In this document: positions 33,260 to 45,420 of the stretch, piece by piece
How positions within the stretch are numbered: the first letter of the stretch is position 1
How the letters are laid out: every line of letters begins with the position of its first letter
Origin: an uncultured Verrucomicrobiota bacterium
GTDB lineage: Bacteria; Verrucomicrobiota; Verrucomicrobiia; Chthoniobacterales; JACTMZ01
Reading direction: 5' to 3'
DNA length: 64,000 bases
NCBI GenBank assembly: GCA_903953565.1
Contig: CAJBKE010000052.1
Coordinates: 124,001 to 188,000 of the forward strand
The notes under the pieces: model-generated
Seen by the model: the letters and a program-made list of their open reading frames with translations, nothing else
What the model was told of the DNA's origin: nothing
Databases searched by the model: none
Made by a program: the position numbers and the translations under genes

Positions 33260-34126
33260 ATGCGCCTGGGCATCACCGGGGCATCCGGCTTCATCGGCCG
33301 TCGGGCCACGCAACTCGCCGCCGCGCGGGGTTGGGACGTCGTGCCGTTCAGTCGCCATCCGCGCGACGCACGCAGCAGGCCCTTTGTTCCGGGGGAAGCT
33401 GCGGACGTTGACGGACTTGATGCTGTCCTTCATCTGGCCGGGGAGCCGGTGCTCGGACTTTGGACCGCGGCAAAACGCGCGCGCATCATGGATAGCCGCG
33501 TCCTCGGCACGCGTTCGCTCGTCGAAGGATTCGCGCGTGCCTCGCACCCGCCGCGTGTCTTGGTCAGCGGATCAGCCATCGGATTTTACGGCAATACGGG
33601 AGATCGCGAGGTTGACGAGAGTTCGCCGGCCGGAACCGGGTTTCTGTCCGATGTCTGCCGCGCCTGGGAAGGGGAGGCGGAAAAAGTGCGCGATGCGCGC
33701 GTCGTTCTTCTTCGCACCGGGTTTGTTCTTGGGCGCGAGGGGGGAGCTATGAAGATGATTCTCCCCGTATTCCGCGCCGGCTTGGGTGGACGACTCGGTA
33801 GCGGCCGACAATGGATGTCTTGCGTTCATGTCGACGACGTCGCCGGCCTCGCCTTGTGGGCTGTCGAGAACGAAGCGGTCCGCGGACCGCTCAACGCGGT
33901 CATGCCGCAGCCCGTGACCAATGCCGACTTCACCCGCGACGTGGCGCATGCCGTGCATCGTCCGGCGATTTTTCCGGCGCCGGCGTTTCTTCTGCGACTG
34001 TTCCTCGGCAAAATGGCTTCGATGTTGCTCGACAGCGCGCGCGTGCGTCCCGCCGTGGCGGAGCGCGGGCATTACCGGTATTCGTTCGTCGATGTCCCGG
34101 ACGCGCTGATCGACATTGCGCGCTGA
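33260..34126 (+). CDS. TIGR01777 family NAD-dependent epimerase/dehydratase-like protein
   Basis: A 288-aa Rossmann protein starting LGITGASGFIGRRATQLAAA. The family marks are DAVLHLAGEPV, WTAAKRARIMDSRVLGTRSLV, VSGSAIGFYGNTGD and RTGFVLGREGGAM. The C-terminal segment SMLLDSARVRPAVAERGHY matches the DUF1731 end seen in this family (E. coli YfcH, plant SulA-like). Reaction and substrate are unknown. The ATG at 33260 is 3 bases after the amidase stop. Confidence 0.9.
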   Translation: MRLGITGASGFIGRRATQLAAARGWDVVPFSRHPRDARSRPFVPGEAADVDGLDAVLHLAGEPVLGLWTAAKRARIMDSRVLGTRSLVEGFARASHPPRVLVSGSAIGFYGNTGDREVDESSPAGTGFLSDVCRAWEGEAEKVRDARVVLLRTGFVLGREGGAMKMILPVFRAGLGGRLGSGRQWMSCVHVDDVAGLALWAVENEAVRGPLNAVMPQPVTNADFTRDVAHAVHRPAIFPAPAFLLRLFLGKMASMLLDSARVRPAVAERGHYRYSFVDVPDALIDIAR

Positions 34127-34174
34127 ACAATTCCGCTTGTCGCCCGCGCGCGGAAAACGAATCCTCGTCTTTTC

Positions 34175-35158
34175 ATGTCCGCTCGCCCGCCTCTCATCGA
34201 TCTGCACCGCCATCTCGACGGCAGTGTGCGTCTCGAAACCATTCTCGACCTCGGCCGCCTTCACAAGATTCCTCTGCCCGGTAACTCATTGGACGAACTG
34301 CGCCCTCATGTCGTCGTCACCACGCCGCAGCCCGGGCTGATCGAATTTCTCGCCAAATTCAAATGGATGACCGCCGTGCTGGCCGATTATGACGCTTGCC
34401 GCCGCGTGGCCCGGGAAAACGTGGAGGATGCGCATCGCGAGGGAATCCGTTACATCGAATTGCGCTTCAGTCCGGCCTTCATGGCCGACGCGCACAATCT
34501 CGATCCGTCTCGCGTCACGGCCGCAGTCATCGAAGGCGTGCGCGAAGGCGAGGCAGCCACCGGAGTCAAAGCCAACCTCATCGGTATTCTCACCCGCACC
34601 TACGGTCCGGTCCGCGCGCGGCGCGAGTTGCGCGCATTGCTCGACCACAAAAACGAGATCACCGCGCTCGATCTTGCCGGCGACGAGGGCAACTGGCCGG
34701 CGGAGCTTTTCGTCGAGCACTTCAAGGAGGGGCGCGGGGCCGGTTGGCAGGTGACCGTCCATGCCGGTGAAGCTGCCGGCGCACAGAGCATCGTCACCGC
34801 GATCGAACAACTCGGAGCCACGCGCATCGGTCACGCCGTCCGCGCCGCGGAGGACGCAGCCGTTATGGATCTTCTCCGTGAGCGTCGCATCGGCATCGAG
34901 GCGAACCTGACCAGCAATGTCCAGACCAGCACGGTGCCCGACTATCCCAGCCATCCGTTGAAAAAATTCCTCGAGAGCGGCTTGCTCGCCACCATCAACA
35001 CCGATGACCCCGGGATCAGCGGTATCGATCTTGCGTATGAATTGGATGTGGCCGCACCGGCTGCGGGACTCAACGAGTCGCAAATCATTCGCGCGCTGGA
35101 AAATGCCTGGGAAATCGCCTTTCTCGGGCCCGAGGAAAAAGCCCGATTGCGCCAGTGA
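34175..35158 (+). CDS. add: adenosine deaminase
   Basis: A 327-aa zinc enzyme that deaminates adenosine (or a related purine) to inosine. Zinc ligands are His11 and His13 (LHRHLDGS), His196 (TVHAGE) and Asp277 (INTDDPG). Catalytic Glu199 and His220 (RIGHAV) are present, so it looks active. Substrate choice (adenosine, adenine or a futalosine-type nucleoside) cannot be fixed by eye. It starts 48 bases after the epimerase-like gene on the same strand. Confidence 0.92.
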   Translation: MSARPPLIDLHRHLDGSVRLETILDLGRLHKIPLPGNSLDELRPHVVVTTPQPGLIEFLAKFKWMTAVLADYDACRRVARENVEDAHREGIRYIELRFSPAFMADAHNLDPSRVTAAVIEGVREGEAATGVKANLIGILTRTYGPVRARRELRALLDHKNEITALDLAGDEGNWPAELFVEHFKEGRGAGWQVTVHAGEAAGAQSIVTAIEQLGATRIGHAVRAAEDAAVMDLLRERRIGIEANLTSNVQTSTVPDYPSHPLKKFLESGLLATINTDDPGISGIDLAYELDVAAPAAGLNESQIIRALENAWEIAFLGPEEKARLRQ

Positions 35159-35243
35159 GCCCTTTCCCCGGTGCGGCAGGCCCCCAAACCGCCCGCAGAA
35201 CGTTTTCCGCGCTGGAAAACCGCCGCCAACAGGTTCTTAATCA

Positions 35244-36017
35244 ATGCCGATGAAAGGATCTGCTCTTCTCTTCGTTTTTGCGGCCCTGCTCGTTCTTCCT
35301 GCTTTGGCACAGACCGACCGGCAGTTGCCGGCTTATGAGGCTTTGCGCACGGTGGCGCAGGCCAAAGGTCAGGACTGGCTTGGTCGACTGGTCGAGATGC
35401 GCGGCGTCGATGGCGACCCGCAGCCCACGCGTTGGCTGCTCACTTTTCGCGATGACAGTGCGCGCGGTGGCGTGCGTGAGTTCGCCGTCGCGCGCCAAGG
35501 GATCGTGAGCGAACGCACCCCGGTGCGCGCGGCGGGGGTTCCTTCGTCCGTCATGTCCGCCCGCGCCCTCAACTTGGATTCCACCGGCGCCTTCTCCGCC
35601 GCGAACAAACAGGCAACGCAGTCCAAGCTCGGTTTTGCTTCGGTCAATTATCTGCTGCAGAACCGCGACGGCGTGCCCGCTTGGCTTGTCCAAATGTTCG
35701 ATGCCTCGGGTGCCGAAGTCGGCAAAGTGGTCATCTCGGCGCGCGACGGGTCGCTCATTTCGCGTCTGCGCGCCCCGGCCGCGACCAAGAAGCCGGCCGA
35801 GGGATCTTCGCCGTCATCATCGGCATCGCGGCCTGCCGCGCCTGACAATCGGCCTGTCGGCGATCGCTGGGTCGAGGGTGGGGGACTTGTCGGTCATTCC
35901 AAGCGCTGGGGTGAAAATGCCTGGCAGACCACGACCAATACCGCGGTGCGCGTCGGCGACAGCATCAGTGCATTTTTTATCGGACGTCCCGCACCGCAGG
36001 GAACGCCCGGCAATTGA
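35244..36017 (+). CDS. secreted protein of unknown function
   Basis: 257 aa with a signal peptide (MPMKGSALLFVFAALLVLPALAQ). The mature part has a beta-rich central segment (WLLTFRDDSARGGVREFAVA; GVPAWLVQMFDASGAEVGKVVIS) loosely like PepSY-type domains, then a Ser/Pro/Ala linker near residues 185-210 and a C-terminal segment WVEGGGLVGHSKRWGENAWQ. No catalytic motif is seen. It is directly upstream of the nfeD-like gene (stop and start regions touch), so it may belong to the membrane-organising operon. Confidence 0.7.
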   Translation: MPMKGSALLFVFAALLVLPALAQTDRQLPAYEALRTVAQAKGQDWLGRLVEMRGVDGDPQPTRWLLTFRDDSARGGVREFAVARQGIVSERTPVRAAGVPSSVMSARALNLDSTGAFSAANKQATQSKLGFASVNYLLQNRDGVPAWLVQMFDASGAEVGKVVISARDGSLISRLRAPAATKKPAEGSSPSSSASRPAAPDNRPVGDRWVEGGGLVGHSKRWGENAWQTTTNTAVRVGDSISAFFIGRPAPQGTPGN

Positions 36018-36025
36018 ATCCATCG

Positions 36026-36496
36026 ATGGACGGTCCCGCCCTGATCATCACACTCTTCGTCGTCGGCTTTTTGTTGCTCGCCGCCGAGGTGTTTCTGCCC
36101 GGCCTGATCGTCGGAACGATCGGGCTCCTTTGCCTCATCGCTTCGGTCGTTCTTGTCTTCAACGAATACGGAGCGCCGGCCGGGGTGCTCGCCGCTTTTG
36201 TCGTCGGCGGTCTCACCGTGGCGGGCTTTGTCATCTGGTTGAATATTTTTCCGCGCACGTTTATCGGCCGTCGCATCATGTTGTTGACCCGGCAAGACAC
36301 CGGCGGGGTGGCTTCCGAAAACCAAGCACTCGTCGGCCAATCCGGCGAAGCGATAACACCCCTGCGTCCCTCCGGCACGGCGCGGATCGGCGGAAAACGC
36401 GTTGATGTCACGGCAGTTGGCGATTTCCTCGAGCAAGGAGTGAACGTCGTTGTTGTCGCCGCCGACGGCATGCGCGTCGCGGTGCGTCGGCAGTAA
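36026..36496 (+). CDS. NfeD-like membrane protein
   Basis: 156 aa with three or four transmembrane segments at the N-terminus (ALIITLFVVGFLLLAAEVFL; LIVGTIGLLCLIASVVLVF; VLAAFVVGGLTVAGFVIWL). A C-terminal soluble OB-fold domain follows (GQSGEAITPLRPSGTARIGG, RVDVTAVGDFLEQG). It is the short NfeD form without a protease domain, usually next to a flotillin-like gene, as here. An in-frame TTG at 36014 overlaps the upstream stop and is an alternative start. Confidence 0.9.
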   Translation: MDGPALIITLFVVGFLLLAAEVFLPGLIVGTIGLLCLIASVVLVFNEYGAPAGVLAAFVVGGLTVAGFVIWLNIFPRTFIGRRIMLLTRQDTGGVASENQALVGQSGEAITPLRPSGTARIGGKRVDVTAVGDFLEQGVNVVVVAADGMRVAVRRQ

Positions 36497-36591
36497 CGAC
36501 GGGACGCCCGCTCGTCCGCTCGCCTCTGAAAATCCGCTCGGGGCCCGCAAAGGCTTTGCCCCATCCGTCCGGATGCGGCTAAGATTCCGGT

Positions 36592-37611
36592 ATGGGTTCT
36601 CTCTTTATCTACATCGTGACCGGCGTGGCCGTTGTCCTCGGCCTCGTCCTCCTCATTGTCCTCTTCAATTTCTTCGGCATTTGGCTGCGCGCCAAAATCG
36701 CCGATGCGCCGGTTTCCTTCGCGCGTCTCGTCGGCATGCGTTTGCGCCGCGTTCCCGTGGGCATGATCGTCGATAGCCGCATCACCGCGGTGAAGGCCGG
36801 CATTCCGCTCGATACCGACGAACTCGAAGCCCACTACCTGGCCGGTGGCAGCGTGGATTCCGTCGTGCTGGCCCTCATCGCGGCGGACAAAGCCGGCATC
36901 AAGCTCGACTTCAACCGCGCCTGCGCCATCGACCTCGCCATCAAAGGAACAAGCAAAACGGTCCTCGAGGCCGTCCGCACAAGCATCAATCCGAAAGTCA
37001 TCGACTGCCCCGCTCCCGGTTCCGGCCGCTCGACGATCGACGCCGTGGCCCGTGATGGCATCGGGGTCAAAGTCAAAGCCCGCGTCACCGTGCGCTCGAA
37101 TCTCGACCGCTTCGTTGGCGGTGCCACTGAGGAAACCATCATTGCCCGCGTCGGTGAGGGGATCGTCACCTCGATCGGTTCTGCGCTCTCCTACAAGGAC
37201 GTGTTGGAAAATCCGGACCGCATTTCGAAAACCGTCCTCCAGAAGGGCCTCGATAGCGGCACCGCGTTCGAAATTCTTTCCGTCGATATCGCCGACATCG
37301 ACGTCGGCGAAAACGTCGGCGCCAAGTTGCAAGGCGAGCAGGCCGAAGCCGACAAAGTCGTGGCCCAAGCCAAAGCGGAGGTGCGCCGCGCTGCCGCCGT
37401 CGCCCTCGAAGGCGAAATGCGCGCCAAGACCCAGGAAATGCGCGCCAAAGTGGTCGAAGCCGAGGCCCAGGTCCCGCAGGCCATGGCCGAAGCCTTCCGC
37501 AACGGCAACCTCGGCATCATGGATTACATGAGGATGAAAAACATCCAGGCCGACTCGCAAATGCGCGAATCCATCGCCGGTTCCGAGCGCGGTAACGCCG
37601 AAGCACGGTAA
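36592..37611 (+). CDS. floA: flotillin-like protein FloA
   Basis: A 339-aa membrane scaffold protein of functional membrane microdomains. The N-terminal hairpin membrane segment ([20 protein letters not shown]) is followed by a long SPFH-like region ([37 protein letters not shown]) and a coiled coil near residues 240-305 rich in Ala, Glu and Lys. The C-terminus has the conserved [20 protein letters not shown]. Length and sequence match the FloA/YqfA family. It follows nfeD by 95 bases and precedes a small membrane-anchored protein by 21. Confidence 0.95.
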
Positions 37612-37632
37612 GAATCCGTCACCGGTTCCGCC

Positions 37633-38232
37633 ATGGAACAACTTGTCCTGCTTGTTGTCATCGGGTTGATCAGCCTGATCAATTGGGTAATGCAGCAAGC
37701 TGCCGAGCGACGCGAGGCGGCCAAGACGAAGCGGGTCGAAAAGCGCGATCTGAAGCGCGAAACGCGGCGCAACGTTTACACGCAACCCGCCCCGGCGCCA
37801 GTCGCGCGCCGGGCCGCGGCGGAGCGCGATCCGTTCAAGGATCTGATGGATGCACTCGGGCTGCCGGCCGAAGGAGTTCCGCCCCGTCCGGTGGTCGCCC
37901 GCCCCGACGACTTCGAGGAGGAAGAGTTCTCCTCGCTCGAAGCCCCCGCTCCCCCCGCGTTGCCCGAGCGCGTGGTGACCAAGCCTCGCGGCAAGGCCGC
38001 ATCTTGGCATCCGCCCGCGCGGCGTGCGCAGCCCGACGAAAAAACGAAGCAACTTGCCTCGGCCTTTGCCGCTTTGGAGGACGCCTCACCCGAGACTTGG
38101 CGCGGCGGCAACGTGCGCTCCCTGCTCGCCAATTCTTCTTCCCAACGCAAAGCAGTGATTCTCTCCGAAATCCTCGGCACCCCGCGCGGCCTCGCCCGCA
38201 CCGATGCCCTCATGACGCGCGGGCATCTCTGA
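37633..38232 (+). CDS. membrane-anchored protein of unknown function downstream of floA
   Basis: 199 aa. One N-terminal membrane segment (LVLLVVIGLISLINWVMQQ) leads to a strongly basic stretch (EAAKTKRVEKRDLKRETRR), a Pro/Ala/Glu-rich middle, and a short C-terminal domain (GGNVRSLLANSSSQRKAVIL, SEILGTPRGLARTD) reminiscent of a small helical motif. No enzyme motif is seen. Close spacing to floA (21 bases) suggests that it is part of the same unit. It ends just before the inverted-repeat element at 38247. Confidence 0.7.
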   Translation: MEQLVLLVVIGLISLINWVMQQAAERREAAKTKRVEKRDLKRETRRNVYTQPAPAPVARRAAAERDPFKDLMDALGLPAEGVPPRPVVARPDDFEEEEFSSLEAPAPPALPERVVTKPRGKAASWHPPARRAQPDEKTKQLASAFAALEDASPETWRGGNVRSLLANSSSQRKAVILSEILGTPRGLARTDALMTRGHL

Positions 38233-38246
38233 GGTCCGAGGTTTTT

Positions 38247-38317
38247 TGCAGCGGCGGTCTATGACCGTCGCAACCTCGTCGAAGTCGGGGCACCGACGGT
38301 CATAGACCACCGCTACA
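38247..38317. repeat. composite inverted repeat (TGTAGCGGCGGTC family)
   Basis: 24-base arms at 38247-38270 and 38294-38317 that match at 22 of 24 positions and share the GCGGTCTATGACCGTCG-type core with the 11631 element. It lies between the convergent floA-linked gene and yebC. It can fold into a long hairpin in both transcripts. Confidence 0.9.
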
Positions 38318-38334
38318 AGTCAAAGGCAGCGCCG

Positions 38335-39066
38335 TCACTTCACCGCCGCCCACACCCGATGCACGTCGTCATGGTCGTCGAGGGCTTGGAGAAAGGCGCC
38401 AACCTCGGCTTGTTGCTCGTCACTCAGATCCGGACATTGCTTCGGCACGTAGCCGAGTTCACTTGTCACGACGGTCCACCCGTTTTCCGACAGCCATTTC
38501 GACACCGTGTGCGTATTTGTGCGGTCGGTGATGAACCGCGCGCCGGTGGCGTCGGCCGGGATGTCGTCATTTTGCGCGTGGGCGAGGGGCTCAACCTCGT
38601 TGGCCCCGGCCTCGATGGCCGCTTCTTCCAGATCGACCTCCGCTTTTGCCGTGTGTGCTTCGACCAGCCCGACTTGATCGAACAAAAACTTGTTGCTGCC
38701 CGAGGCCCCGAGTTGCCCCTTTTTGAAGAGCACGCGGATCTCCGGCGCGGTGCGGTTGTGGTTGTCGGTCACGGCCTCCACGATGACCGGCACCTTGTGC
38801 GGCGCATATCCCTCGAAAGTCATGTTTTCGAGCGCCGTTTTGTCCGCACCCGTGCCCGCACCCTTGGCGATGGCCCGCTCGATGACGTCTTTCGCGACAC
38901 TTTCCTTGCGCGCCTTTTCCAGTGCTGCGGCGAGTCGCGAGTTCGTCGCCGGGTCCGCCCCGCCATGACGCGCTGCGATGGTGATTTCGCGGATGAACTT
39001 CCCCGTCGCCTGCGATTTCCGGAGCGAGGCAACCTCGCGCTTGGCTAGCAACCATTGACGTCCCAT
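38335..39066 (-). CDS. yebC: YebC/PmpR family protein
   Basis: A 243-aa protein of the YebC/TACO1 family. It starts MGRQWLLAKREVASLRKSQ and continues with KFIREITIAARHGGADPATN, AIAKGAGTGADKTALENMTF and YAPHKVPVIVEAVTDNHNRT. Some family members are reported as transcriptional regulators; others act in translation at difficult (for example polyproline) stretches. The N-terminus differs from the common AGHSKW-type start but keeps its position. It is usually linked to ruvC; here ruvC is not nearby. Confidence 0.93.
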   Translation of the reverse strand: MGRQWLLAKREVASLRKSQATGKFIREITIAARHGGADPATNSRLAAALEKARKESVAKDVIERAIAKGAGTGADKTALENMTFEGYAPHKVPVIVEAVTDNHNRTAPEIRVLFKKGQLGASGSNKFLFDQVGLVEAHTAKAEVDLEEAAIEAGANEVEPLAHAQNDDIPADATGARFITDRTNTHTVSKWLSENGWTVVTSELGYVPKQCPDLSDEQQAEVGAFLQALDDHDDVHRVWAAVK

Positions 39067-39101
39067 AGGCGGAGGATCCTAAGCGAAAGCCTGCCGCCCG
39101 C

Positions 39102-39650
39102 TCAAGGCTGCGTCCCGTCCACGTGCAGCATCACTTCATTGCGCCGCATGAACGGTGGAATCCACGGCGGATCATAATATCCGAACATCGGGTCCCCCTC
39201 GACCTCGAGCCGCCGCTTATCGACCCACGCCCTCAATTTGCTCAAGGCCTCTTGCTCATTCGCCTCATTGCGTCCGCCCCAATACTGGTAAACCGCAAAC
39301 CGCCCGGCTGGTAGTTCGTCCATGGTCACCGCCGAATCTTTCGGTGCCGGCACCTTTTTCGCCGCCACATCCTTCGGCACAATAAAGCTCATACCGGTGC
39401 CTTCGCCCTCGTGCTTCATCAAGACCGGTGCCGTCATGGCAATCTTCTGCTCCGCCTCGTTCCCTCCCGAAATATAGCTGAAGAGCCGCATGAAATCTCC
39501 ATCCCCCGAAGCCGTCCGCACTAAAGTCAGCGCCGGATACTCCCGCACCTCGAACTTTCCGTCCTGTAGAAGGACTTTGTAGTCGGGTGTTTCGGTGGCC
39601 ATGGCAGTGCACGCGAGGGTCAAAAAGAAGGCAATAGTCCGGGAGATCAT
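39102..39650 (-). CDS. SOUL-domain heme-binding family protein, exported
   Basis: 182 aa with a signal peptide (MISRTIAFFLTLACTAMA). The SOUL domain is clear: YKVLLQDGKFEVREYPALTL, FMRLFSYISGGNEAEQKIAM followed by TAPVLM, and RRNEVMLHVDG near the end. SOUL proteins bind heme or related ligands in eukaryotes; bacterial members are mostly uncharacterised. The ATG at 39650 is chosen because it begins the signal peptide; the longer frame upstream lacks one. It lies 35 bases upstream of yebC on the same strand. Confidence 0.9.
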   Translation of the reverse strand: MISRTIAFFLTLACTAMATETPDYKVLLQDGKFEVREYPALTLVRTASGDGDFMRLFSYISGGNEAEQKIAMTAPVLMKHEGEGTGMSFIVPKDVAAKKVPAPKDSAVTMDELPAGRFAVYQYWGGRNEANEQEALSKLRAWVDKRRLEVEGDPMFGYYDPPWIPPFMRRNEVMLHVDGTQP

Positions 39651-39763: not shown

Positions 39764-40189
39764 ATGCCCAACGACCCTGATGTCCGCTGGCACCAGCGTT
39801 TGCAGAGTTTTCACAAGGCATTCGTCCGTCTTTCGGAGGGCACGCGGCTGGCTGGCGAGCGGGAGCTTTCTCCGCTGGAAAAGCAGGGGCTCATTCAGGC
39901 GTTCGAGTTCACCCACGAGCTGGCTTGGAACGTGCTCAAAGACTACCTCGAAAGCCAAGGCATCCAAGGAGTGGTCGGGTCCAAGGGCGCCACGCGCGAG
40001 GCTTTCAAGAACAGTCTCATTGCCGACGGCGAAGTCTGGATGGATATGATCAAGAGCCGCAACCAGACCAGCCACACTTACAACGAAGTGACAGCGAACG
40101 AGATCACGGAGGCCATCCTCACACGCTATTGCGCGCAATTTTCGCAATTCTCCACGCGCTTTTCCCGGCTGCAGGAGGCGGGATCATGA
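39764..40189 (+). CDS. HepT-like HEPN toxin (nucleotidyltransferase substrate-binding family)
   Basis: A 141-aa helical protein of the HI0074/HepT family. The HEPN RNase motif is complete: Arg99-Asn100-x3-His104-x-Tyr106 in SRNQTSHTYNEV. In characterised HepT/MntA systems this tyrosine is AMPylated by the antitoxin. Further family marks are QAFEFTHELAWNVLKDYL and GSKGATREAFK. It overlaps the nucleotidyltransferase gene by ATGA, toxin first. It could cleave RNA when unmodified. Confidence 0.87.
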   Translation: MPNDPDVRWHQRLQSFHKAFVRLSEGTRLAGERELSPLEKQGLIQAFEFTHELAWNVLKDYLESQGIQGVVGSKGATREAFKNSLIADGEVWMDMIKSRNQTSHTYNEVTANEITEAILTRYCAQFSQFSTRFSRLQEAGS

Positions 40190-40530
40190 ACGGGCACGGC
40201 TTGGCGCCACAGACCGTGGAGCAGATCCAAGGAACGCTGGCCCATTTTCCCGAAGTGGCAAGAGCCGTTCTTTTCGGGTCCCGGGCCAAGGGAACGGCCA
40301 GGCCAGGTTCCGACATCGACCTTGCGCTTTACGGGGAAGGTCTCGATTGGCGTGTGCTCGGTCGGATCGAGGACGAATTGGACGATCTGCTTTTGCCCTA
40401 CACCTTCAGCTTGCTCCGCCACGACACCCGAACCGATTCCGAAGTGGTCGCGCATATCGCGAGGGTCGGAGTCCCTTTTTACCAACGCGGGGCGGCGAAA
40501 ATAGGAAGCCTCCCAGTGCCGGTCTCCTAG
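40186..40530 (+). CDS. MntA-like minimal nucleotidyltransferase (antitoxin)
   Basis: A 114-aa minimal nucleotidyltransferase. The motif GSRAKGTARPGSDIDLAL gives Gly31-Ser32 and Asp43-x-Asp45. An AGGAGG ribosome-binding site precedes the ATG. It would AMPylate the HepT-like partner to neutralise it. The third catalytic acid, which in relatives such as HI0073 lies in LPYxxDLS, is not evident: here the segment reads LPYTFSLLRHD. The enzyme may therefore use another acid nearby or be impaired. The C-terminal HIARVGVPFYQR is typical of the family. Confidence 0.85.
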   Translation: MNGHGLAPQTVEQIQGTLAHFPEVARAVLFGSRAKGTARPGSDIDLALYGEGLDWRVLGRIEDELDDLLLPYTFSLLRHDTRTDSEVVAHIARVGVPFYQRGAAKIGSLPVPVS

Positions 40531-40667: not shown

Positions 40668-41858
40668 ATGGATGCGTTTTTTGTCGATCTCGGACGGCGG
40701 GTGCGGGAGCGGTGGCAGGCGGTGGATTTTTCCCTCGCTGCTTTCCCTGGCCTCGCGCAGGCCGCTCTGGAGGAAAATCCCCCGGCGACACAGGTGGACC
40801 TCAAGGCTCTCACACGCTCGTTTTTGCGAGAGGATGAGCAGCCGTTTCAAACGGCCTCGGGATTTGGTCAGCCTGAGTTGGTCGTCTTCGACGATCCGCG
40901 GTTTTATATCCAGATTCTGTTCTGGCTGGACGGGACCACGCAGATTCACCAGCACGAGTTCTCCGGGGCCTTTCATGTGCTCGAGGGGTCGAGTCTGCAC
41001 GCCGAGTTTGCCTTTGCCAACGTGCGGCCGGTCACCGCGCATTTCCGGCTGGGTGATTTGCAACTGACCGGCACCGAGTTGCTGGAGACCGGGCGGACCG
41101 TGCCGATCACGTCGGGCGGGGCCAGTATTCACTCGCTCTTTCACCTCGAAACGCCGTCGGTCACGGTGGTGGTGCGCACCCACTCGGATCCGGGGACCGG
41201 ACCGCAATTCACTTACCTGCCCCCGCATGTCGCGGTGGACCCGTTTTTTTCCGACGCGCTGACCACCCGGCGCCTGCAACTGCTCGACGTGCTCGACCGG
41301 ACGGTGGCCGAGGACTACGCCGAGGTGGTTCGCGCCATGGTGGCCTCGCTCGATTACGAAAGAGGTTTCTTCACTTTGCAAAATTGCCTTGTCGCCCTGC
41401 AGGAGCGGGGAGAATGGGAGGAAACGTGGGATGTTTTTGCAAAAAAGCACGGACCACTCGCCGCCTACGCCGCACCCACGCTCGAGGAAATTGTCTGGCG
41501 CGACCGCCTCGTCAATCTGCGCGGGTCCATCGAGGACGCCGACCATCGTTTCTTTCTGGCTCTCCTGCTCAATGTCCCGCGGGCCTCGGACATTCTGTCT
41601 TTGGTGGCTGCGCGTTTTCCCGGTGATCCTGTCACCACCGTGCTGGCTTGGGCGGAGGAATTGAGCGAGTCCTCCGAAGCAGGCACATGGATCCTCGATG
41701 CGGAGTATCCGGCCGGGGAAGAGGAAGCAGGAAGCGAAGCTCCCCTCGATCGCTTTCTCGGCACCTTGGCCCGTTGCCTCAAGGGCGAGACCAAGGCAAC
41801 CGACGCCGCCCGGCGCGAGGCGCTGGCGCAGTCGAGCCTGCGGGCTCTCGTGGCGTGA
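40668..41858 (+). CDS. cupin-like protein of unknown function, coupled to a J-domain gene
   Basis: 396 aa. A cupin-like core lies near residues 75-175: His94, His96 and His103 in TQIHQHEFSGAFHVLEGSS, and His155 in GGASIHSLFHLETPSVTVV, which would fit a metal site. The C-terminal half (from about residue 190) is helical with no recognisable motif (LQLLDVLDRTVAEDYAEVV; HRFFLALLLNVPRASDILSL). I do not recognise a named family. Its stop overlaps the GTG of the J-domain gene (GTGA), so the two are translationally coupled. The start at 40668 lacks a clear ribosome-binding site. Confidence 0.65.
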   Translation: MDAFFVDLGRRVRERWQAVDFSLAAFPGLAQAALEENPPATQVDLKALTRSFLREDEQPFQTASGFGQPELVVFDDPRFYIQILFWLDGTTQIHQHEFSGAFHVLEGSSLHAEFAFANVRPVTAHFRLGDLQLTGTELLETGRTVPITSGGASIHSLFHLETPSVTVVVRTHSDPGTGPQFTYLPPHVAVDPFFSDALTTRRLQLLDVLDRTVAEDYAEVVRAMVASLDYERGFFTLQNCLVALQERGEWEETWDVFAKKHGPLAAYAAPTLEEIVWRDRLVNLRGSIEDADHRFFLALLLNVPRASDILSLVAARFPGDPVTTVLAWAEELSESSEAGTWILDAEYPAGEEEAGSEAPLDRFLGTLARCLKGETKATDAARREALAQSSLRALVA

Positions 41859-42619
41859 GCAGCGCAAATCACTATGACACGCTCGGCCTTGACCGGCGTT
41901 GCACCACGGCGCAGATCCGCGCCGCCTACCGCCGATTGGTCAAACAACATCATCCTGACGTCAATCACATCCAGCCCGACGCCACGATACGCGTCCAAGC
42001 GCTCAACACAGCGCACGCGACGCTCAGCGATCCCATCCGACGTGCGGCTTATGATTGTGAGCTCGACGAGAGCGTTTCCGCCGGTCCAGCCGCGCCGACC
42101 GGAAGGCAACGGGACATTGCCCAGGATGTGATGTTGCGAGTCGAAGAGTTTATCCGCGGGGCAACGCTGACCATTCGGGTCAACGACCCCGCCAACCCAC
42201 ACGGAACAGAAACCTACGAACTCGAGGTTCCGCCGGAAACGGCTCCGAGCGCGAAGTTTCGCATGCCCCGAGCCGAGCCATTCACGGGGAGCTTCGTCGT
42301 TGTCCGTTTGCGCGCTCTGCCCGGCGGTCGCTTCCGGGCGCGGGGTTCGGATCTGCGCACCGACTTGCGAATCAGTGCTGCACGGGCAACCAGCGGCGGC
42401 ACCGAGACGGTCCCCGGCGCGAGCGGACGCATGGTCCGCGTGACCATTCCCGCCGGAGTCACGCGGGGTGCGGTGCTGCGGGTAACGGGCGAAGGCCTGC
42501 CCAAGCCACGCGGCGGCCGCGGAGATCTGCTGGTGCGCGTAACCTATCGGGTGGAAGTAAACGTTTCGCGCGGGGCCAAGCGGACGAGCTCTTCCTACCG
42601 GCGGATCCTCGGAAGATAG
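41855..42619 (+). CDS. DnaJ-like (CbpA-type) J-domain protein
   Basis: 254 aa. The J-domain is at residues 6-68 (HYDTLGLDRRCTTAQIRAAY) with the HPD motif at 33-35, so it should stimulate an Hsp70 ATPase. No zinc-finger region is present. A DnaJ C-terminal-like beta domain follows, seen in VMLRVEEFIRGATLTIRV and VRVTIPAGVTRGAVLRVTGE then GLPKPRGGRGDLLVRV. The GTG at 41855 overlaps the upstream stop and sits directly before the J-domain. Being coupled to a cupin-like gene rather than to dnaK, it may be a client-specific cochaperone. Confidence 0.88.
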   Translation: MSSANHYDTLGLDRRCTTAQIRAAYRRLVKQHHPDVNHIQPDATIRVQALNTAHATLSDPIRRAAYDCELDESVSAGPAAPTGRQRDIAQDVMLRVEEFIRGATLTIRVNDPANPHGTETYELEVPPETAPSAKFRMPRAEPFTGSFVVVRLRALPGGRFRARGSDLRTDLRISAARATSGGTETVPGASGRMVRVTIPAGVTRGAVLRVTGEGLPKPRGGRGDLLVRVTYRVEVNVSRGAKRTSSSYRRILGR

Positions 42620-42776: not shown

Positions 42777-43466
42777 GTGTCCGAGGTATACCGCCGACCA
42801 AGTTTTCGCGCCATTGCGCTGGTCCTTGTGGGTGTTGTTATTGGACTGATGATTGCGGGTGGAATTGCACTCTGGGATGCCAACCGCAAGGTGCAGTTGC
42901 TCGCCTCACTGGATTTTCGGATTCACGATCCGGGTATCCCGGAGAACGTCCTCACCACCATACGGAACGCCGAACTCACCGCATATGACGACATGGGATT
43001 GGTTCGCAAGGCTGTGGAGAATATTCAGGATTCATTGGCGTTGCTCTGGCCCGGCTTGGCCTTTTCCTATGACTTCTCCATTGGCCCATACTGCATCAAG
43101 GCCAGCACGGTGCGAGAGATGGTGGATTTCGCCTTGGACGAGGAGTATCTGACTCTCAACAGTGAACGCTCGAGCCGCTATAACGAAGTGCTTCCTCTGT
43201 TCGCCCTGCAACCTTCTATCAACGACTGGGAAGCCAGCGTGTTGCTGGAGTATCTCCGGCGGCGACACCCCGGATTGCGCAACATGACATGGCAGGCCAT
43301 TGCGGCCGACCCCAACGCAATCGCCAAGCTCTATTCAGGCTACATGGGGGCCGGTGGCGACTGGGCACGCTGGGAATCCGATCTCGTGCCCGGTGCAGTG
43401 TCACGCGATCGTCTTGGATACGACCCTGCCACGGGGAAATACGCAGCGGTAGCGCCCTCGAACTAG
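42777..43466 (+). CDS. membrane-anchored protein of unknown function
   Basis: 229 aa. One N-terminal membrane segment (AIALVLVGVVIGLMIAGGIALW) precedes a soluble domain with many aromatic and acidic residues (IPENVLTTIRNAELTAYDDM; LLEYLRRRHPGLRNMTWQAI). The pattern resembles a secreted helical protein, and remote similarity to lysozyme-like folds is possible but unproved. The start is a GTG at 42777. The 157-base gap upstream holds a small hairpin (GTGGC-TCG-GCCAC) and possible promoter sequence. Codon use looks somewhat less GC-biased than the neighbours. Confidence 0.6.
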   Translation: MSEVYRRPSFRAIALVLVGVVIGLMIAGGIALWDANRKVQLLASLDFRIHDPGIPENVLTTIRNAELTAYDDMGLVRKAVENIQDSLALLWPGLAFSYDFSIGPYCIKASTVREMVDFALDEEYLTLNSERSSRYNEVLPLFALQPSINDWEASVLLEYLRRRHPGLRNMTWQAIAADPNAIAKLYSGYMGAGGDWARWESDLVPGAVSRDRLGYDPATGKYAAVAPSN

Positions 43467-44242: not shown

Positions 44243-44301
44243 ACGGCTAGGCATGGCACTGCCTGCCATTTTCTTTGCGTAGGGAAAGCGACGAGAGCAC
44301 T

Positions 44302-45420
44302 TTGAGTTATTCGAGAAAGAACCCGTTTCCAGCGCGGTTGACTGCCACCCGCCGCCTGACCGCGCCCGGTTCGGGCAAAGAAACAGTGCATTTTGAAGTG
44401 TCGCTGGCCGGTTCGGGACTCGTCTATGAAGTCGGCGATTCGCTCGGCATTTTTCCCGCGAACGATCCCGCCGAAGTGGATGCCGTGCTCGCCGCCGCCG
44501 GCCTGAGCGGCAATGAAGTGGTTGAGAGCGCGGGCGCCAACCTGCGCGATGTGCTCACACGCCAAATGACGCTGCGCGAACCATCGCGCCAGTTGCTTGC
44601 CGCCGTCCTCGAGAAATGCCCTGAGGCCACGGAGTTGTCCGAGTTGATTGACCCGGAAGCCAAATCGGTGATGGAGGATTGGATCGACGGACGCGAGGTG
44701 GTCGACATTCTGCGGGCTTATCCGCAGGCCAATTTTACCGCGGAGGAACTGGTCAAAGTTTTGCGCAAACTCCAGCCGCGGCTCTACTCCATCGCCTCCT
44801 CGCCCAAGGCTCATCCCGAAGCGATCCACCTCACCGTGGCCATCGTGCGCTACGAGTTGCACGGACGTGGACGCCAAGGCGTTTGCTCCACGTATCTGGC
44901 CGACCGCGTGAAGGATGCATCAATGCCGGTTTTCATCCACTCGGCCAAACACTTCCGCCAACCCGAGGACGCGTCGGTTCCGGTCATCATGGTCGGCCCA
45001 GGCACGGGCATCGCGCCGTTCCGCGCGTTCTTGCAGGAACGCGAAGTGCTCGGTGCTCCGGGCAAGTCATGGCTCTTTTTCGGCGACCGCAATCGTTCGA
45101 CCGATTTCCTCTACGAGGAAGAAATCAACGCGTGGTGCGCCAAAGGCGTGCTGCACAGGCTCGACACCGCCTTCTCCCGTGACCAGGTCGAGAAGGTTTA
45201 TGTACAGCACCGCATGAGGGAAAATGCCGACGAACTGTGGAAATGGCTCGAGGAAGGCGGATACTTCTACGTCTGCGGCGATGCCTCGCGCATGGCCAAA
45301 GATGTCGACGAGGCATTGCATCGCATCGTTGAGCAGGCCGGCGGCAAATCGAAAGAAGACGCAGCGGCTTACGTCGAGGAACTGAAAAAAACCAAACGCT
45401 ACCGGAAGGACGTCTACTAA
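44302..45420 (+). CDS. sulfite-reductase-type flavoprotein (CysJ-like) without flavodoxin domain
   Basis: A 372-aa diflavin-reductase-like protein with FAD- and NADPH-binding modules only. It starts MSYSRKNPFPARLTATRRL. The FAD motif is RLYSIASSPKAHP, the NADPH loop VGPGTGIAPFRAFLQER, then GDRNRSTDFLYEEE and the C-terminal KRYRKDVY typical of CysJ/cytochrome P450 reductase. The FMN (flavodoxin) domain of CysJ is absent, so electrons must pass to a separate acceptor. The TTG at 44302 gives the N-terminus usual for this family. No cysI hemoprotein gene adjoins. Confidence 0.88.
   Translation: MSYSRKNPFPARLTATRRLTAPGSGKETVHFEVSLAGSGLVYEVGDSLGIFPANDPAEVDAVLAAAGLSGNEVVESAGANLRDVLTRQMTLREPSRQLLAAVLEKCPEATELSELIDPEAKSVMEDWIDGREVVDILRAYPQANFTAEELVKVLRKLQPRLYSIASSPKAHPEAIHLTVAIVRYELHGRGRQGVCSTYLADRVKDASMPVFIHSAKHFRQPEDASVPVIMVGPGTGIAPFRAFLQEREVLGAPGKSWLFFGDRNRSTDFLYEEEINAWCAKGVLHRLDTAFSRDQVEKVYVQHRMRENADELWKWLEEGGYFYVCGDASRMAKDVDEALHRIVEQAGGKSKEDAAAYVEELKKTKRYRKDVY

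Follow-up and report, generated by a model that had tools for sequence, protein, structure and literature searches.

A cupin-like protein and a J-domain protein encoded by overlapping genes in a verrucomicrobial genus: a possible facultative partnership

Introduction

Among the J-domain co-chaperones (JDPs), those of class B are defined by a G/F-rich linker and DnaJ_C domains without a zinc finger, and DnaJ_C domains bind short hydrophobic stretches. To our knowledge, client choice by bacterial JDPs is understood in few cases. A closely comparable system is AtcJABC of Shewanella oneidensis, reported to encode a special JDP together with partners whose function is unknown, the contact being made by a short C-terminal tail (PMC6715715). 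Within the open-access literature, no cupin-JDP pair is announced in the titles or abstract openings among the matches listed, an absence that is weak evidence.

In this work, we analyse a 64,000-nucleotide stretch of DNA (the window) from an uncultured verrucomicrobial genome of 2.86 Mb in 70 contigs, in which the gene of a 396-aa cupin-like protein overlaps that of a JDP.

The overlapping genes and their surroundings

The features of the locus are the following:

40668-41858, forward strand: 396-aa protein, with a cupin-like N-terminal half and a C-terminal half predicted to be helical (low-confidence model)
40947-40955, forward strand: H94-Q-H96, first His pair of the presumed metal site; invariant in 43 sequences; aligned to the HxH that cysteine dioxygenase (CDO) has
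41130-41144, forward strand: H155-S-L-F-H159, second His pair, at the position of cupin motif 2 (by eye); both His invariant in 43 sequences
41814-41855, forward strand: C-terminal tail, residues 383-396, with R383 and SS[LWF]RxL (S389-L394, including R392)
41855-41858, forward strand: GTGA overlap of the JDP start (GTG) and the cupin stop (TGA), identical in the 4 genomes of the genus found to carry the pair
41855-42619, forward strand: JDP of 254 aa (PF00226 and PF01556), with no zinc finger and no G/F-rich linker
41951-41959, forward strand: HPD motif of the J-domain, read from the sequence; HPD in 30/30 family members
42125-42547, forward strand: DnaJ_C domains (PF01556, residues 91-231)

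Both reading frames and the GTGA overlap of the preliminary description were recovered at these positions. The overlap is conserved in 4/4 pair-carrying genomes found in the genus, where the JDPs are just 78-81% identical to that of the window and GTGA is kept nonetheless; at the thresholds used, neither gene was found in 7 other examined genomes of the genus. Since the cupin gene is matched in 62/213 and the JDP gene in 30/213 genomes of the order (both counts take in the genome of the window), the overlap exceeds a chance overlap of open reading frames. An earlier TTG start, proposed by a mechanical 323-aa ORF, proved superfluous: 30 JDP homologues align from residues 1-6 of the GTG-started frame, and for this reason we take GTG 41855 as the start. 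We infer translational coupling of the putative cupin-JDP unit.

Comparison of the window with the loci L014 (genome G010), L015 (G005) and L016 (G006) revealed a single block of 82-85% DNA similarity, running from about 60 bases before the cupin gene to the end of the JDP gene; L015, a contig of 3.5 kb, is uninformative on the flanks. A region further upstream, containing the FloA, YebC and SOUL genes (33749-39614, in pieces), is also common to the window and L016, and relative to L016 the window has an additional upstream stretch with a HEPN-nucleotidyltransferase pair. None of the upstream flanks common to the window and L016 match in L014. Because the pair block is shared while the flanks of L014 differ from those of L016 and the window, the cupin and JDP genes remain together amid changing surroundings within the genus.

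The HEPN-nucleotidyltransferase stretch (39764-40530, forward strand) encodes a HEPN-like protein (PF08780, E 4.2e-43) and a Polbeta nucleotidyltransferase (PF18765), the composition of a HEPN-MNT toxin-antitoxin type pair. Located upstream of the cupin-JDP genes in the window, it is missing from that place in L016 and lies downstream of them in L014 (L014:8650-8951 and L014:10038-10830), once nearly whole and once partial; it seems to move around the locus. Downstream of the JDP gene of the window are a 229-aa protein with a hydrophobic N-terminal stretch and no Pfam match (42777-43466, forward strand) and, at about 1.7 kb, a flavoprotein reductase (44275-45420, forward strand; FAD_binding_1 and NAD_binding_1, CysJ-like by reading) with no DNA match in L014 or L016. 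A 691-aa ORF (35977-38052, reverse strand) opposite the FloA flotillin-like gene (PF12127, 36592-37611, forward strand) is probably a high-GC artefact.

A conserved family with a cysteine dioxygenase-like stretch

The 396-aa protein belongs to a conserved family that has four invariant histidines and is absent from the protein-family libraries we searched. It had no significant match in Pfam, NCBIfam, PHROGs (window protein alone) or the PDB sequences, where the best hits of phmmer (E 0.95) and of the profile (E 0.17) were both unrelated. Single members among the 43 homologues gave weak hits that were likewise unrelated, with no cupin family among them. The family itself is real, as its 62/213 genomes of the order show, and fits none in these libraries. 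Besides the 62 genomes of the order, it was found in 34/384 genomes sampled in the class (profile search) and in 10/387 sampled across the phylum; plasmid records and viral contigs contained no relative.

Some occurrences stand apart. In the tree, the cupins of G275, G394, G406 and G709 (family f18, outside the order) are nested among cupins from the order, a possible horizontal transfer; the first three are 57-58% identical, and G709 was detected by the profile only. A homologue truncated by a contig end (L018:3508-3930, 62%) is found on a 3.9-kb contig of a MAG labelled Akkermansiaceae, suggesting misbinning or transfer. In the genus g30, the cupin matches of L163 (G061:C96) and L167 (G070:C272) read through in-frame stops.

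The histidine-rich core previously pointed out is well founded, with H94, H96, H155 and H159 invariant in 43 sequences, as are W86, G107, R170 and others. We take H94-Q-H96 to be cupin motif 1 without the usual Glu. An HxH plus a later His, with no motif-1 Glu, is the pattern that we assume for the CDO family in this comparison, and the protein shows it in the invariant H94, H96 and H155. The core (residues 55-195) aligned with six CDO sequences in hhalign over 43 columns, HxH on HxH, with motif 2 lying outside the alignment. The score was 28.1, whereas 200 column shuffles had a median of 12.3 and reached 20.5 at most. As the hhalign probability is 23%, a CDO-like cupin is supported rather than proven. 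Against the Cupin_2 proteins of its own genome the core scored 17.0, within the range of 100 shuffles (maximum 23.3); for scale, CDO scores 30.7 against the same Cupin_2 set. In the same hhalign series, a high score of the C-terminal half against CDO, over 32 columns, was nonsensical and was discarded. PF05995 (CDO_I) matched neither the window protein nor any protein of G000. The S-x-H-x-Y that follows the third His has a role in CDO, and it is missing from the 396-aa protein, which by eye has T166-V-V-V-R170 where CDO chains show s-l-h-l-y.

The AlphaFold models, made from 5 and 6 sequences, were unusable (mean pLDDT 41 for the full length and 34 for residues 1-200). The helical half noted before is indeed predicted, but only by the very low-confidence full-length model (mean pLDDT 41). 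The 396-aa protein is best described as a predicted His-rich cupin with a motif 1 resembling that of thiol dioxygenases and with a second domain. It is probably either an Fe(II) oxygenase or a sensor that evolved from such an enzyme, in which the cupin fold, the binding of a metal and an enzymatic activity are all putative.

A J-domain protein without a G/F-rich linker

Pfam identified DnaJ (PF00226, E 1.5e-18; 67.1 bits, cut-off 27.8) and DnaJ_C (PF01556, E 3.1e-17) in the JDP. Its designation as a CbpA-type DnaJ without zinc fingers holds for the DnaJ_C domains, the HPD motif and the lack of zinc fingers, but not for the linker, since the G/F-rich segment of class B is missing (G+F fraction 0.00-0.16 in 30 sequences). 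The genome of the window encodes three JDPs over the Pfam cut-off. The other two are L160, with zinc-finger motifs, and L161, which lacks a zinc finger but has a G/F-rich linker; these we name a canonical DnaJ and CbpA-like, respectively, from their sequences.

The JDP family was matched in its 30/213 genomes of the order at a threshold of 1e-30, with at least 51% identity, and in 5/387 genomes of the phylum sample at 1e-25. It is set apart: in ten genomes searched without the 1e-30 limit, the next matches were at 1e-14 or weaker.

The C-terminal tail of the cupin and the presence of the JDP

The idea of a tail came from inspection by eye of the C-termini in the alignment of 43 rows, in which the 12 JDP-carrying genomes all have SS[LW]R close to the C-terminus and many others do not. 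In 25 further genomes, a loose pattern was found in 7/7 cupins with the JDP and in 9/18 without it; contig ends truncate some of these 18. When the stricter SS[LWF]RxL was applied to 57 proteins, the tail was present in 19/19 cupins from JDP-carrying genomes versus 14/38 from the others (15/38 with a loose pattern, which included a false hit in G113). This set comprised the 62 cupin genomes of the order, minus nine with fragments, contig ends, unclear frames or distant sequences (G063, G070, G074, G075, G114, G115, G139, G204 and G210; the distant family f17 was omitted), plus the four genomes of family f18. G709 was counted as JDP-less without a JDP search, and this scoring works against the tail hypothesis because G709 has the tail. 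In g30, 6/8 proteins of the set end at 350-356 aa without a tail, which looks like a loss of the C-terminus in that lineage.

A comparison of single residues pointed to the same end of the protein. Of the 121 columns identical in the 19 cupins with the JDP, the least kept in the 38 without it were R392 (14/38) and R383 (19/38), both within the last 14 residues; next came V313 (22/38), then S22 and R127 (26/38 each). Setting aside the g30/G058 clade, with its 9 sequences of which 7 are short, left the two arginines in the same two top ranks. In the reverse control, none of the 103 columns kept in at least 37/38 JDP-less sequences fell below 84% in the JDP-carrying ones. A mirror test on the JDP, with weak numbers, found four residues the most relaxed without the cupin: D91 and G145, at 6/11 each, followed by T17 and R86, at 7/11 each. 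Plain presence or absence of the whole tail was rejected as the feature that tracks the JDP, S389 and L394 being kept also without it (29/29 each outside the g30/G058 clade); of the tail residues, only R383 and R392 do so.

Parsimony on a single FastTree tree with midpoint root, built from the columns of residues 1-335 and therefore free of the tail, gave 9 tail losses when a gain cost three times a loss and ties were broken toward JDP presence. All 9 are on branches with a JDP-less lower end, two of them with a JDP-carrying upper end; JDP-less branches make up 55% of the relevant length, which gives a rough p of 0.005 for the nine losses. This test of the association was devised after the data had been seen, and its control for phylogeny is rough. 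The pattern of 19/19 versus 14/38 suggests that the cupin tail is a candidate optional docking tail for the JDP, a lead of moderate strength because tails vary more than cores, many JDP-less MAGs are incomplete and the idea was derived from the data.

Co-occurrence of the two genes and alternative explanations

Among the 213 genomes of the order, many of them incomplete MAGs whose absences are to be read accordingly, 19 have both genes, 43 the cupin alone, 11 the JDP alone and 140 neither. The cupin is thus present in 19/30 genomes with the JDP versus 43/183 without it (Fisher p 2.6e-5, uncorrected for phylogeny), and the count by genus (8 shared of 12, 11 among 45) gave p 2.8e-4, also uncorrected.

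Both genes are adjacent in 6 of the 19 genomes, covering three families and two gene orders. The overlap itself accounts for four of these, all from one genus, and the remaining two are from families other than that of the window: in G078 the genes adjoin in reverse order, with the JDP first, and in G045 they are 429 bases apart and do not form a plain operon, because an ORF on the other strand separates them. They lie 12-14 kb apart in two further genomes (G029 and G015) and on different contigs in 11. For the 15 genomes from outside the genus, the probability of at least two adjacent same-strand pairs arising by chance is about 2.6e-5, a rough figure that assumes independent placement and independent genomes, with a distance limit picked after the data were seen.

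The protein trees of the cupin and the JDP are correlated (Mantel r 0.68, with 0/5000 permutations as high), and several placements differ. Neighbour families common to cupin loci occur within lineages, at 7/44 loci at most when ORFs overlapping the cupin are set aside, and give no functional clue; ten neighbours of JDP genes that we scanned were of unrelated kinds or unmatched. Opposite-strand ORFs of 123 and 94 aa, 55% identical to each other, lie beside the JDP gene in G045 (L047:5183-5554) and G029 (L115:16214-16498), which belong to one genus; the former has no Pfam match.

The pairing therefore recurs in other genomes and is not limited to this strain, and its upstream member fits no known family in the libraries searched. 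Both results agree with the dedicated chaperone envisaged in the preliminary description, but 43/62 cupin genomes are without such a JDP, 11/30 JDP genomes are without the cupin, and 11/19 genomes with both carry them on different contigs. A dedicated, obligate chaperone is therefore supported in part only. What hints at a partnership that is real but optional is that the related cupins keep certain tail residues wherever the JDP is present.

The alternative that survives best is a neutral one, in which descent or a joint transfer placed two accessory genes of the same lineages side by side in a single genus. The two would have no functional link and the overlap would be ordinary packing, an explanation that we regard as only slightly less likely than the reading favoured below. 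In most genomes neither gene requires the other, the strict overlap is confined to one genus, the two trees disagree in several placements, and a pair kept as one block in changing surroundings also fits transfer as a unit. Nevertheless, such a neutral history predicts neither that the genes would again be neighbours in two further families, and in two gene orders, nor the association of the tail with the JDP.

Alternatively, the cupin may control the JDP, as an adaptor that senses a metal or thiols and switches or directs the DnaK system, much as CbpM does for CbpA and maybe AtcC for AtcJ. JDPs with a partner of their own have precedents in AtcJ-AtcC of Shewanella (PMC6715715) and CbpA-CbpM (PMC4063869). 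Moreover, because the JDP has no G/F linker, a partner could supply its specificity. We consider this control improbable, since the cupin occurs in more genomes than the JDP (62 vs 30 of 213) and its histidines are invariant even in sequences from JDP-less genomes, which argues that it has a role of its own. A common third target, for instance in thiol or sulfur stress, acted on by two co-expressed proteins without mutual contact, would agree with the CDO-like stretch and the co-occurrence, but no sulfur gene was recognised among the shared neighbours and the flavoprotein reductase is unmatched in the two long loci of the genus compared, and we give this explanation little credence.

Proposed mechanism

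The reading that we favour, tentatively and with less than even confidence, is that of a facultative pair, formed by an enzyme-like cupin and an unusual JDP that binds the cupin tail and hands the cupin to DnaK. In most lineages the cupin would act without a partner. In genomes that have the JDP, the DnaJ_C domains may bind the tail (R383 plus SS[LWF]RxL), and through its HPD motif the JDP would then pass the cupin to DnaK, to be folded, loaded with metal or repaired. In the genus of the window, the two genes form one overlapping unit.

A more specific version, unlikely as a whole, would be a JDP system dedicated to one client. Here the cupins would be a new family of metal enzymes bearing a short C-terminal tag (R383 plus SS[LWF]RxL), and a JDP without the G/F linker would read this tag with its DnaJ_C domains. 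Lineages devoid of the JDP may then lose or alter the tag, and the genes would have been joined more than once, in one genus with overlap. If true, this would provide a JDP client marked by a short tail, with a partner naturally present or absent across a single order, so that client choice could be tested both genetically and biochemically.

Comparison with known systems

With CDO_I (PF05995), the 396-aa protein has in common an HxH in the same strand context (ILFWLDGTTQIHQHEF vs IICWRSGQRSPIHNHAA), a later His and a motif 1 without Glu. It differs in its invariant H159 at the position of the CDO Asn and its R170 near the place of S-x-H-x-Y (both by eye), as well as in a length about twice that of CDO, with a second domain and no Pfam match. 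The JDP resembles CbpA and other class B proteins in that its J-domain contains HPD and precedes DnaJ_C, and in lacking a zinc finger; in contrast to them, it has no G/F-rich linker, whereas the CbpA-like L161 elsewhere in the same genome has one.

As a JDP with its own partner protein, the pair is similar to CbpA-CbpM of Escherichia coli (PMC4063869), although CbpM is a small MerR-like binder of the J-domain and no cupin. AtcJABC shares with our locus a special JDP with a co-encoded partner, and its contact by a short C-terminal tail is like the one proposed here; however, that tail of 21 residues belongs to the JDP, which consists of a J-domain and the tail only, whereas the candidate tail described here is that of the partner (PMC6715715).
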